Assembly (NCBI GenBank): GCA_017309115.1
Contig: JAFLEF010000034.1
Span: 21,133-85,132, forward strand
Reading direction: 5' to 3'
Source of the DNA: Verrucomicrobiota bacterium
GTDB taxonomy: Bacteria > Verrucomicrobiota > Verrucomicrobiia > Limisphaerales > UBA9464
DNA length: 64,000 nucleotides
A program made the position numbers and the translations under genes. The stretch's first letter is position 1. Each line of letters begins with the position of its first letter. The notes beneath the pieces are model-generated. The model saw only the letters and a list, made by a program, of their open reading frames with translations, ran no database searches and was not told the DNA's origin. Positions 3,584 through 13,935 of the stretch are shown piece after piece.

Positions 3584-4465
3584 TCACACGGGTTCCTTAA
3601 GAATCTCGATGAAACGCTTGAGGGCCGGTGAAAGGACCTTGCTGCGCCGGTGAATCACCGCCAACGGACGTCCTGGAAGAGGCTCCGTGAACGGTATGCT
3701 CACCAACGTGTGCTTGGACACTTCCTGAACAACGGTGCCCTGCGGGACAATCGCAATGCCAGCTTCGATTTCAACGGCGCGCTTCACCGTTTCAATGTTG
3801 TCGAACTCCATCACCACCTTCACCTCGACCCCGGCCTCCCGTAAAATCCGGTCGATCGCCTTCCGAGTCGGAATGTCATGTTCGAATCCGATGAACTTCT
3901 GACCGTGCAATTGGCTGAGCGAAAGCGTCTTTTGCTTCGTAAGGGGATGTTGCGGCGGACAGATGAGAACCATGGTCTCCTCCCGCAGCGGAACCACTTC
4001 GAGGCGAGAATCCTTGTTGGGATACGCGACCAAGCCCAAATCAACGACGTTGCCCAGAACATCATCGTAGACCTGATTGGCCCGCTGATACTCGATGTGT
4101 ACTTGGACCGTCGGATACGCCCGCAGGAATTTCTTCACGTAGGGCGGTAGGTTGTGCAGTCCGATGCTGTAGATGGTGGCCACCCGGATGCTTCCAGAAA
4201 CTACGTCCCGCGCCTCCTGCAACCGGCTCAAGAGCGTATCGAACGTCTGAACGATCTGCTTGCCGCTCTCGTAAAGAAGCTGGCCCTCGTGAGTCAGGCG
4301 GAACTTTTTCTTGCTCCGCTCAATCAGCAGGATCTTGAGCTGGCGCTCCAGCGAACTGACCTGCTGGCTGACGGCACTTTGGGTTACACCATTGATCTGG
4401 GCAGCTTTGGTAAAGCTCTCGGTCTCGGCCAGATCACAAAACACTCGGAAGCTCTGAACTTGCAC
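3584..4465 (-). CDS. LysR-family transcriptional regulator
   Basis: 293 residues with the LysR layout: N-terminal winged helix-turn-helix (FTKAAQINGVTQSAVSQQVS, about residues 18-37), a linker helix, and a periplasmic-binding-protein-like effector domain from about residue 90. It starts at GTG 4465, as no ATG lies in frame close upstream. In overall form it is near the CysB/CysL/CbbR side of the family. Position directly upstream of the lipoprotein and AspT-like transporter suggests that it controls them or that all three share a promoter. The effector is unknown. Confidence 0.88.
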   Translation of the reverse strand: MQVQSFRVFCDLAETESFTKAAQINGVTQSAVSQQVSSLERQLKILLIERSKKKFRLTHEGQLLYESGKQIVQTFDTLLSRLQEARDVVSGSIRVATIYSIGLHNLPPYVKKFLRAYPTVQVHIEYQRANQVYDDVLGNVVDLGLVAYPNKDSRLEVVPLREETMVLICPPQHPLTKQKTLSLSQLHGQKFIGFEHDIPTRKAIDRILREAGVEVKVVMEFDNIETVKRAVEIEAGIAIVPQGTVVQEVSKHTLVSIPFTEPLPGRPLAVIHRRSKVLSPALKRFIEILKEPV

Positions 4466-4573
4466 CCGCTTAGCATAGACGCCTCTTTGCGAAAATCACC
4501 GGGTCACCAGCAGATTTAGTGATGAATCCTTCCGCGACCATTGGCGTCGGTATCGGGTTTTCTCCCAGGCGCC

Positions 4574-6254: not shown

Positions 6255-6893
6255 ATGAAACGGGTTGCGCTTTGGTTGGGCGGGGTGCTGGCGTGCACGG
6301 GATTGCATGCCGCGGAACCGGTGTTCTCTCAGGATTTCTCCCAGTCCGACGTCGGATCGATGCCGGATGATTTTCTGGTTCTCGACGGTCTCTTCGCAGT
6401 GAAGGAAGATTCCGGCAACCGCTTCGTGGAACTTCCGGGGGCTCCCCTGGAGTCCTACGGATTTCTCTTCGGCCCCAACGAACCCCACAGTGTCGAAGCT
6501 GCGGGACGGATCTACGGAACCAAGACCGGACGCAAATTTCCCACGTTCAGTCTCGGTTTAAACGGCGCCAGCGGGTACCGCCTGCAAATCGCCCCAGCCA
6601 AAGGCACCGTCGAACTCCAGCGCGGCGATTCCGTAGTCGCCAGCGCTCCGTTTGCCTGGAAGTCCGGCGAATGGACTGAACTCCGATTGATGGTCCGAAA
6701 ACTCTCCGACACTGAGTATCGAATCGAAGGCAAAGCGTGGATCGCCGGGACCGAGGCGCCCAAGGACCCAACACTCACCTTTGCAGAGACCAAACTTCAA
6801 CCCGCCGGCAAAGCGTCAGCCTGGGGAATGCCGTTCTCCGGAACTCCGATCCGCTTCGACGACCTGAAGGTGACGCGCACTTCAGGGTCTTGA
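6255..6893 (+). CDS. Exported hypothetical protein, concanavalin-like fold suspected
   Basis: 212 residues from the ATG at 6255, chosen because it begins a clear signal peptide (MKRVALWLGG, then a hydrophobic stretch, cleavage likely after GLHAA). The mature protein starts VFSQDFSQSD and has alternating beta-rich segments with a closing IRFDDLKVTR. That pattern is common in LamG/DUF1080-like beta-sandwich proteins of Verrucomicrobia and Planctomycetes that bind or cleave glycans. No catalytic motif was identified, so a glycan-related role is only an inference. It converges on oppC with a gap of 9 bases. Confidence 0.7.
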   Translation: MKRVALWLGGVLACTGLHAAEPVFSQDFSQSDVGSMPDDFLVLDGLFAVKEDSGNRFVELPGAPLESYGFLFGPNEPHSVEAAGRIYGTKTGRKFPTFSLGLNGASGYRLQIAPAKGTVELQRGDSVVASAPFAWKSGEWTELRLMVRKLSDTEYRIEGKAWIAGTEAPKDPTLTFAETKLQPAGKASAWGMPFSGTPIRFDDLKVTRTSGS

Positions 6894-11925: not shown

Positions 11926-13179
11926 TTAGTTTTCGTCGAGACAGGTCACGCCAGGAAGGGGTGTTCCCTCCAAAAACTCCAGGCTGGCACCGCCGCCCGT
12001 GCTCATAAACGTCACCTTGTCGCCCAGTTTCGCTTTGTTGATCGCCTTCACCGAGTCGCCCCCACCGATAATCGACTTGGCGCCGTTGGCCGTGGCAGCC
12101 GCCACGGCTTTGGCAACCGCCAGCGTGCCTTCGCCAAAGCGGGGATCTTCGAACATTCCCATCGGTCCGTTCCACAGAATGGTCCGAGCCGATTGGATGA
12201 TCTGGGAAAAGCGGGCCGAGGTGGCAGGGCCGATATCAAAGCCTTCGCAATCCGCCGGAATATCCGTTTCGGTGTTCACCCGGGGGTTCACCGGCTCGAA
12301 CACGGGCTTGCCCTTCTTGTTGAGCTTTCCGGTGTCCTTCAACTCGGCAATCACGTTGTCACTAGGAAGTTCGAACTGGACCTTGAGTTCCTTCGCCTTC
12401 GATTCGGCATCCAAGGCGGTATTGATGTGCTCCGGTTCGACCAGGGACTTCCCGGTCTTGTGGCCATGGGCGAGCTTGAAAGTGTAGGCCATTGCACCCC
12501 CGATCAGGATGGTGTCGGCCTTTTCCAGCAACCGATCGATCACCTTGATTTTATCCGAAACCTTGGCGCCCCCAAGGATCACTACAAACGGCCGAGCCGG
12601 AGCTTCGAGTTCGTCGCCCAGAAACTTTAGCTCCCGCTCCATGAGCAGTCCGGCTGCACATCGTCCACCCCAGGCCGAAATGATCCGGGCCACCCCACAG
12701 GTAGAGGCATGAGCCCGATGAGCGGCGCCGAACGCGTCGTTGACGTAAGCGTCGGCCAAGACCGAAAGCCGGGCGGCAAAAACCGGGTCGTTCTCTTCTT
12801 CCTCGGCGTGAAAACGGACATTCTCCAGCAGGAGGATTTCACCGTTCTTTAGGGCTTTCGCGGCTGCTTCCGCTTTTTCACCGACACACTCGTCCACAAA
12901 TTGGACTGGCTTACCAATCAACTCCGCCAGTTTCTCCGAAACGGGCCGCAGACTGAGGGAGGGTTCCCGCTTACCATCCGGCCGACCCAAATGCGCCGCG
13001 AGAATGATTCGCGCCCCCTTTTCCTGAAGCAGCTTCAAGGTGGGGAGCGTCTCCCGGATGCGGGTCGAATCGTTGATGACCATTCGGCCATCCTTTTCTT
13101 CCATGGGGACGTTGTAATCCACGCGAACCAGCACGCGCTGGCCCGAGACCGAAAGGTCGCGAACGGTGAGTTTCGCCAT
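11926..13179 (-). CDS. pgk: Phosphoglycerate kinase
   Basis: 417 residues, full length. The substrate-binding N-domain shows RVLVRVDYNVPM and the hinge shows GGAKVSDKIKVI; the nucleotide-binding end carries SIIGGGDSVKAI and STGGGASLEFLEG. It transfers the acyl phosphate of 1,3-bisphosphoglycerate to ADP. It is the first gene of pgk-tpiA-secG. The sequence GAAGGA lies 8 bases before the ATG. A terminator-ended chain of hairpins begins 104 bases upstream on the same strand and could be a regulated leader. Confidence 0.97.
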   Translation of the reverse strand: MAKLTVRDLSVSGQRVLVRVDYNVPMEEKDGRMVINDSTRIRETLPTLKLLQEKGARIILAAHLGRPDGKREPSLSLRPVSEKLAELIGKPVQFVDECVGEKAEAAAKALKNGEILLLENVRFHAEEEENDPVFAARLSVLADAYVNDAFGAAHRAHASTCGVARIISAWGGRCAAGLLMERELKFLGDELEAPARPFVVILGGAKVSDKIKVIDRLLEKADTILIGGAMAYTFKLAHGHKTGKSLVEPEHINTALDAESKAKELKVQFELPSDNVIAELKDTGKLNKKGKPVFEPVNPRVNTETDIPADCEGFDIGPATSARFSQIIQSARTILWNGPMGMFEDPRFGEGTLAVAKAVAAATANGAKSIIGGGDSVKAINKAKLGDKVTFMSTGGGASLEFLEGTPLPGVTCLDEN

Positions 13180-13283
13180 AAATAGTTCCTTCGTTGAAGG
13201 AGCCTGAGGGTACGCACCGCAGCCGTTCCGGTGAAAGTGATTTTCCAGCGGTCAAGCCCGGTCAAACTGGGCTCCATGAAATC

Positions 13284-13310
13284 AAAAAGCGGGCACCTCA
13301 CGGTGCCCGC
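13284..13310 (-). terminator. Rho-independent terminator upstream of pgk
   Basis: A perfect 9-bp stem (GCGGGCACC with GGTGCCCGC) closes a 4-base loop at 13289-13310. On the minus strand it runs straight into five T residues (13288-13284). It lies 104 bases before the pgk start, on the pgk strand, and 262 bases after the mrpG stop. It could end the mrp transcript, end a separate small RNA, or act as an attenuator for pgk. Confidence 0.9.
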
Positions 13311-13562
13311 CTAACCCAAACAACCAAACTAACCTCCTTTACCAGAGTCGAAGACTCCGGAAGGGAACAGAATGACAACCGTAGGATGCCGCTCCTGTTC
13401 CCGGGAACCAACGCCGCTTTACTTAGCGGTCGAGCCGATAGGTTCAACGCAAAAGTGAACCAAAGTGGCGAACCGCTGACGGTTTGTCCGCCATCACTCC
13501 CGCCAGACGAGGCAGTGTCCCAACCGAAGTCGCTGGATACTGCCCGTTTGCACACCAAACCG
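13284..13562 (-). ncRNA. Candidate structured RNA or pgk leader
   Basis: This gene-free stretch folds, by eye, into a row of local hairpins on the minus strand. Paired parts (plus coordinates) are 13546-13560, 13511-13544 (10-bp scale stem capped by UUCG), 13466-13493 (two 5-bp stems around a bulge), 13441-13461, 13414-13429, 13363-13402 (8-bp stem) and 13342-13360, followed by the terminator. A full AAAGGAGG lies at 13333-13340 (read on the minus strand). I could not match it to tmRNA, RNase P, SRP RNA, 6S or CsrB. Whether it is a stand-alone RNA, a riboregulator of pgk or the mrp 3' UTR is open. Confidence 0.55.
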
Positions 13563-13572
13563 GCAAAATCAG

Positions 13573-13935
13573 TCAGTCATCCCCCAAAACAGGGTCGCGG
13601 GGCGAGCCGCCACCTGCAACTTCCTGACCTTGGTCAATCGGCCGCATTCGCCACCGGGGAATTCCTTTCTCCCACGCCAACCTCGAGACTAGGTGGCTGC
13701 CCACGGGAACCGTCGCGAACTGGAACACCATCGCAAAAAACACCTTGAAACCAGCCGCCTCCACCCCCAGCGACACGCCCAGAGCCAGGAGGATCAAGAG
13801 GATGCCCAAGGTCGCTCCCTTGGCGACGGCATGGCCCTGACAAAACACATCGGGCAGGCGCGCGGCACCAATGGCTCCGAGCAGAATGAAGGTAGTGCCC
13901 GCCAGCACTAGGGCGTTGATCAAAACCTCGTTCAT
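13573..13935 (-). CDS. mrpG: Mrp/Mnh Na+/H+ antiporter subunit G
   Basis: 120 residues from the ATG at 13935, which overlaps the mrpF stop as ATGA. Three membrane helices and the motif FILLGAIGAARLPDVFCQGH followed by AVAKGATLGILL are typical of PhaG/MnhG. The C-terminal 25 residues are hydrophilic. It is the last gene of the seven-gene operon; MrpG is a small membrane subunit required for assembly of the antiporter. Confidence 0.93.
   Translation of the reverse strand: MNEVLINALVLAGTTFILLGAIGAARLPDVFCQGHAVAKGATLGILLILLALGVSLGVEAAGFKVFFAMVFQFATVPVGSHLVSRLAWEKGIPRWRMRPIDQGQEVAGGGSPRDPVLGDD

Follow-up and report, generated by a model that had tools for sequence, protein, structure and literature searches.

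A conserved small RNA gene of Verrucomicrobiota with a near-invariant G/U-rich linker and candidate TonB-dependent receptor targets

Among the described small RNAs (sRNAs) that act on outer-membrane protein mRNAs, OmrA/OmrB, MicA and RybB are Hfq-dependent and repress their targets near the start codon, and RybB and MicA are transcribed from sigma-E promoters. GcvB of enteric bacteria, likewise Hfq-dependent, has many targets, in which its G/U-rich region recognizes sequences near ribosome-binding sites. The Verrucomicrobiota RNA described here differs in sequence from OmrA/OmrB, MicA and RybB, and the sigma-E promoters of the latter two resemble the TGAAC-N16-17-CGTC element found before it. 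The targeting region of GcvB is G/U-rich like the linker of the present RNA, but GcvB needs Hfq. ChvR of Caulobacter crescentus is reported to be an Hfq-independent sRNA with three predicted hairpins, the third of which may be a terminator. By base-pairing it represses the mRNA of a TonB-dependent receptor, and one of the sites spans -20 to -10 relative to the start codon (PMC6237742). ChvR would be the closest functional parallel to the Verrucomicrobiota RNA. Its pairing involves stem-loops at two mapped sites (PMC6237742), whereas the proposed seed here is the linker; the two come from different phyla, and the likeness would be one of function, the RNA described here being known from sequence alone. 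Table 1 of a 2022 review gives 8 distinct annotated sRNAs for the PVC group versus 345 for Proteobacteria (PMC9029176). Among the open papers found by searching, none is about this RNA by its title or the opening of its abstract.

The window, a stretch of 64,000 nucleotides from a Verrucomicrobiota bacterium (contig JAFLEF010000034.1), contains a gap between mrpG and pgk that an earlier note had described as a row of hairpins ending in a terminator. The gap does measure the 393 bases then claimed (13180-13572), as confirmed from the stop of mrpG at 13573 and the start of pgk at 13179, and its pgk strand carries several hairpins and an intrinsic terminator (13312-13287) with a T run behind it. 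A terminator scan gave 3 terminator-like sites in 2001 bases versus 3.4 in shuffles, so that the scan by itself is no proof; conservation supplies it. On the pgk strand 13280-13572 folds with a z of -3.94 against shuffles (0 of 200 as good), which divides unequally: 13284-13414 reaches -4.65 (0/200), and 13415-13572 only -1.76 (6/200), little above chance. The UUCG-capped hairpin at 13511-13544 falls within this unconserved 5' half, and the region 5' of the unit, that hairpin included, has no blastn match beyond its own genome among 59 genomes. Hairpins and terminator are thus present as the earlier note had it, but they do not form a single 280-base row of related hairpins, and the 5' boundary had been set about 150 bases too far upstream. 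The opposite (plus) strand of the stretch folds even better (z -6.11 against shuffles) than the pgk strand. Stability therefore does not set the strand, which is set by the promoter, the T run and conservation.

What remains is a unit of about 131 nt on the minus strand (13284..13414), delimited by a covariance model match and by the fold z of that interval. Read 5' to 3', it consists of a hairpin H1, a hairpin H2, an SD-like element AAAGGAGG, a linker GUUUGGUUGUUUGGGU and an intrinsic terminator, all on the minus strand. H1 (13363..13402), an outer stem enclosing an inner hairpin, and H2 (13342..13360), of the form CCGGAGUC-UUC-GACUCUGG, are defined by folds and covariation, H2 lying immediately 5' of the SD-like element (13333..13340). 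The G/U-rich linker GUUUGGUUGUUUGGGUUAG, our proposed seed, spans 13311..13329; the terminator (13284..13312), found by the scan, has an 11-bp stem, a GUGA loop and a U run. Upstream on the same strand lies a promoter-like element (13420..13447), made of TTGAAC (13447-13442), a 16-nt spacer and TAAGTA (13425-13420). The 5' end of the RNA would accordingly lie near 13414, judging by the promoter spacing and a conserved GUUGGUU. An alignment of 30 loci gives the same order: often an A-rich tract, then TTGAAC, 16-17 bases and a CGTC-like element, followed by GUUGGUU, H1, H2, AAAGGAGG, GUUUGGUUGUUUGGGUUAG and the terminator, corresponding in the window to 13447 down to 13284. A T run of at least 4 is present in 68 of 71 distinct loci.

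These 71 loci are what is left of 75 after 4 repeats were removed, 29 of them within the window's family and 42 outside it. They were drawn from linker-based searches and, beyond the family, from 40 of the 101 genomes that the model matched there, mostly at the top of its list. In other words, the loci were found largely through the linker or as top model matches, and the linker identity given below is overstated for the order as a whole.

The RNA is widespread in the order. A blastn search with the gap gave matches in 33 of 59 genomes, its own included, and those beyond its own genome lay almost all at query 220-296 (window ~13353-13277), a block comprising the end of H2, the SD-like element, the linker and the terminator. 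A covariance model (R1; 135 positions and 33 pairs, built from 12 sequences, with the structure written from locus L005) matched 132 of 294 genomes and 59 of 118 genera of the order at E 0.01, although nine of the 132 rest only on model position 91 onward, that is, on the linker or terminator. The window's own match (G000:C40:34417-34546, window 13285-13414) has an E of 7.4e-27, its sequence being among the 12 from which the model was built. There was one match in 127 of the 132 genomes and two in the other five, the weakest rows being near the threshold. Second copies were noticed in two genomes: one (G216) has a copy (L216, G216:C102) that is a diverged paralogue with a TTTGAAC element, and another (G264, L217/L218) has two near-identical copies.

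Beyond the order, a linker 18-mer, with at most one mismatch, occurs in 10 of 387 genomes of a phylum sample; one is the window's own genome, and the other nine show by eye no terminator-like hairpin behind the linker. A linker 19-mer was found in 72 stretches of named genomes, most titled Verrucomicrobia and some Pedosphaera or Pedosphaerales. By eye, 64 of these are members and eight (L133, L134, L136, L157, L168, L169, L180 and L184) were rejected as chance. Six loci (L151, L174, L183, L190, L197 and L176) carry the RNA on contigs labelled Akkermansia muciniphila or Bryobacteraceae, which are probably mistitled or wrongly binned.

Covariation in homologous regions, the test by which the earlier note's candidate was to stand or fall, is present in all helices. 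The alignments concerned were fitted to the model and so lean towards it, and 12 of the 29 rows from the window's family are the model builders themselves. Within these 29 sequences 93.0% of cells are paired, against 31-48% when the structure is slid along the alignment, and there are 167 both-side changes versus a shuffled mean of 57.1 (0 of 500 shuffles); 23 pairs changed on both sides, a number reached by 3 of 500 shuffles and the one measure of these that any shuffle attained. Such changes fall in seven of the seven outer and six of the seven inner model pairs of H1 and in seven of the eight pairs of H2. Outside the family (42 rows from 41 loci, including one reverse-strand terminator match, L117, which is present twice, and no row for the hairpin-less L037), 94.4% of cells are paired, all eight H2 pairs change on both sides, and the 227 both-side changes compare with 68.3 in shuffles (0/500). 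The terminator stem is paired in 100% of cells in the 29 sequences and in 98.9% outside the family.

Evidence that does not pass through the model points the same way. In 37 of 62 loci a stem of at least 6 pairs immediately precedes the SD-like element, compared with 10% of shuffles. Folded singly with the linker and terminator removed, most of the 29 sequences, which were folded together with five from other families, show by eye the two-hairpin pattern. With the linker included, the folds of relatives vary more, and the linker is often paired with another part of the molecule; in the centroid fold of the window's RNA, 13 of the 16 linker bases are unpaired and the GGG is paired with the 5' end. 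RNAalifold on a plain MAFFT alignment did not recover H2 and placed linker bases in pairs with the SD-like part, and was replaced by the per-sequence folds and the model-fitted alignment.

No Rfam family was found to match this structure. In Rfam release 15 at the gathering cut-off, the comparison that the earlier note had proposed for the gap, the window has no match (best permissive E 1.1), and 13 related loci gave at the gathering score only one tRNA and no sRNA family. The 6S RNA model (RF00013) does not match at the gap, and its sole match in the window's genome lies elsewhere (L034, G000:C3:8422-8610), a possible 6S RNA scoring 37.8 bits, below the cut-off of 46.4. Covariation in every helix, together with the absence of an Rfam match, bears out the idea of a new structured RNA. 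That a real, independent and conserved structured RNA gene precedes pgk we regard as practically certain.

The promoter-like element belongs to the evidence for an independent unit. A TGAAC-N16-18-GTC pattern lies upstream of the linker in 42 of the 71 loci, compared with 20 among 3550 shuffled stretches. In the genus of the window and in the genus g9 (L001, L002, L008, L009 and L010), a TA-rich stretch replaces, by eye, the CGTC of the promoter, and the second promoter part in the window's genus is TAAGTA or TATTGA. This looks like a change in how the RNA is controlled in these genera. The TGAAC-N16-17-CGTC element presumably resembles the promoters of ECF/sigma-E factors, a reading that we offer as a lead only. 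The full pattern, TTTGAAC-N16-17-CGTCTGA, was found at most twice per genome among 116 genomes, repeated elements aside; several of its matches are the sRNA itself, and others stand before genes that by eye are sigma-70-, CtpA- and peroxiredoxin-like. It was also seen 29 times in G115 and seven times in G118 in nearly identical copies, apparently within repeated elements and, in G115, often near contig ends.

The most conserved part of the unit is the linker. Its first 16 bases are exact in 58 of the 71 loci, differ by one or two mismatches in 12 and by four in one, and each of the 16 positions is 92-100% identical. An SD-like form [AG]AGG[AG]GG lies within 14 bases of the linker in 61 loci and is absent from that distance in 10, one of which (L117) has such a form a few bases further upstream. 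The search pattern admitted A/G variants only, so that the lack of other changes in this element is no evidence. One genome, G037 (L219, G037:C104, ~4430-4540), has a minimal form of the RNA made of promoter, linker and terminator, with no hairpins and no SD-like element, which still adjoins a beta-CASP gene. The retention of the linker in this minimal RNA suggests that the linker is the functional element. In the window's own genome, a gene that by eye is of PEP-CTERM type (L032/L222, G000:C57, ~6265-6360) has an expanded G/U repeat at its 3' end, with the exact linker 16-mer just before the terminator; this repeat is possibly a sponge, a 3'-derived sRNA or the origin of the motif.

The SD-like element followed by such a linker might also be read as the start of a small ORF or leader peptide, in which the SD AAAGGAGG precedes UUG GUU GUU UGG GUU. 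A UUG does stand 4-12 bases past the SD-like form in all 61 loci that have one, but that UUG itself belongs to the invariant linker, and the frames that open from it run from 9 to 514 codons, with no shared length. The third codon positions of the linker are moreover 93-100% constant, and the constraint therefore looks nucleotide-level. With neither a common frame length nor synonymous changes, the peptide reading was rejected, and we consider it highly improbable.

The genes around the RNA change from lineage to lineage. In the window the next gene downstream is pgk (11926..13179, minus strand), which the neighbour survey shows to be no conserved neighbour: within the flanks examined it is downstream in 8 of the 71 loci. 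A beta-CASP RNase gene, encoding Lactamase_B, Beta-Casp and RMMBL domains, is the divergent upstream neighbour at 27 of the 42 loci beyond the window's family, an arrangement found in none of the 29 loci within the family. Other neighbours, named by eye, are an NhaD-like antiporter upstream (10/71), ileS (4/71) and, on the opposite strand at the downstream place, a Sua5/TsaC-like gene (4/71). Because its neighbours change, the RNA is best read as its own gene. The pgk and beta-CASP counts argue against both a general pgk leader and an mrp 3' end, and the latter, which the earlier note had allowed, is not upheld for a unit that starts at its own promoter-like element and outside the family so often has a divergent gene before it. 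The alternative of a stand-alone small RNA appears strongly supported by that element, by the terminator and by the single model match in 127 of 132 genomes.

The third alternative of the earlier note, a cis-acting leader or attenuator of pgk-tpiA-secG sensing a metabolite, draws on the constant position of pgk, which lies on the same strand 125-156 nt 3' of the linker in all eight loci that have it. Such a leader fails in the rest of the 71, which within the flanks examined show no pgk downstream and four of which have the opposite-strand Sua5/TsaC-like gene in that place, and pairing between the linker and the pgk leader exceeds shuffles in only one of the eight. We have dropped it as very improbable, whether as a metabolite leader or as one that pairs. 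Control of the divergent beta-CASP mRNA by the linker was likewise rejected: of 24 loci tried among the 27, the start was not found in 10, and none of the 14 leaders compared fell below p 0.05.

The unit might, lastly, be a mere terminator with a conserved upstream stretch, marking the 3' ends of upstream operons, much as the PEP-CTERM-type gene ends in a similar G/U stretch and hairpin. This is very unlikely, for H1 and H2 covary, the unit has a promoter-like element 5' of it in 42 of the 71 loci and, outside the family, a divergent upstream gene in 27 of 42, and 127 of the 132 matching genomes have a single model match.

We therefore hypothesize that the unit is a gene in its own right, encoding a trans-acting small RNA that base-pairs through its linker, a reading we hold to be the probable one. 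It is suggested by a promoter-like element, two covarying hairpins, a near-invariant linker that lies outside their helices and a terminator, all kept while the neighbours change. The RNA would be transcribed from its own promoter; H1 and H2 may serve as a 5' stabilizer; and, as the seed, the G/U-rich linker lying between H2 and the terminator would pair with mRNA leaders beside the start codon and so block the entry of ribosomes. A search for Hfq (PF17209, E 0.001) found it in 0 of 59 genomes, the window's own included, and in 5 of 14 control genomes. No Hfq having been found, pairing must run without it or through another chaperone.

Within the window's family, three genera have what would be the best candidate target, the mRNA of a TonB-dependent receptor. 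Two genomes, G022 and G025, have before the gene of such a receptor, whose product contains a plug domain, a 25-base site (24 matches; -39 to -15 from the AUG) that is complementary to the linker and to the first bases of the terminator stem. Part of this site thus pairs with the 5' arm of the terminator, which would need to open. These two sites surfaced in blastn by the match itself and are consequently no test of pairing. We compared each genome's own linker with the receptor leader from -60 to +15, starts being assigned by hand, and counted how many of 500 dinucleotide shuffles gave a duplex at least as good. Six of 12 orthologues have sites near the AUG. Besides G022 and G025 (no shuffle as good in either), these are G013 (6 shuffles), G005 (13), G019 (1) and G014 (0), four of the 10 further orthologues, from two other genera, with sites at most 50 nt from the AUG. 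There was no signal in G016 (224), G011 (422), G020 (111), G017 (435) and G010 (441), nor in G006 (90), a genome without a detected sRNA for which the linker of G020 was used. Three species of the genus g2 and two of g7 probably share their sites by descent. The window's own genome has no orthologue of this receptor at 1e-30, and its three plug-domain receptors have no clear linker site. Several TonB-dependent receptor genes (in L253-L271) were also seen to have upstream TGGCACG-N4-TTGC-like elements, which we take to resemble sigma-54 promoters.

Exact complements of a linker 12-mer occur at 50 places in 45 genomes. Thirty-six are the sRNA gene and 14 lie elsewhere: three in receptor leaders, one in G017, two in early codons and eight in other places, so that six are in sense in translation-initiation regions. 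The G017 site, which precedes by 35 nt the AUG of a gene whose product has a signal-like start, was matched by none of 300 shuffles; the two early-coding sites, one of them in a genome without an sRNA match, do not beat shuffles (183/300 and 69/300). There is no genome-wide enrichment, the 14 complements outside the sRNA gene comparing with 66 for the reversed 12-mer; likewise, counting those in sRNA genes, 116 genomes contain 196 17-mer complements with at most two mismatches, versus 270 for the reversed pattern. As judged from these complementarities, pairing of the linker with one receptor in three genera seems well supported, and not so for the whole order.

The few targets found do not fully account for so conserved a linker, and a ribosomal or protein partner is conceivable as well. 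The linker and the SD-like AAAGGAGG might dock a protein or the ribosome, the RNA being a decoy or sponge: either the 16S rRNA would pair through its anti-SD tail with AAAGGAGG, or an RNA-binding protein would attach to the linker. An invariant linker suits a single constant partner, its complements are not enriched genome-wide, and the SD-like element is present in 61 of 71 loci, four of its forms pairing with a generic 16S tail, maybe not the host's, at -11.5 to -12.4 kcal/mol. Yet the receptor leaders of three genera pair mainly with the linker, 10 of the 71 loci have no SD-like form within 14 bases, and the minimal RNA of G037 keeps the linker but neither the hairpins nor the SD-like element. 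We consider docking a possible but distinctly less likely explanation than pairing with mRNA. A bolder proposal joins the two: an order-wide, Hfq-free global regulator, in which the linker and the SD mimic would address the starts of envelope mRNAs and the anti-SD, together with the beta-CASP RNase whose gene lies head-to-head in 27 of 42 loci outside the family. This is speculative, and we think it doubtful.

On our preferred reading, that of a trans-acting sRNA pairing through its linker, a large part of this order has in common an RNA with a covarying structure, a sharp seed and candidate targets, and no detectable Hfq. The covariance model could found a new Rfam family. The RNA also provides a handle on how Verrucomicrobiota may regulate their outer-membrane receptors post-transcriptionally.
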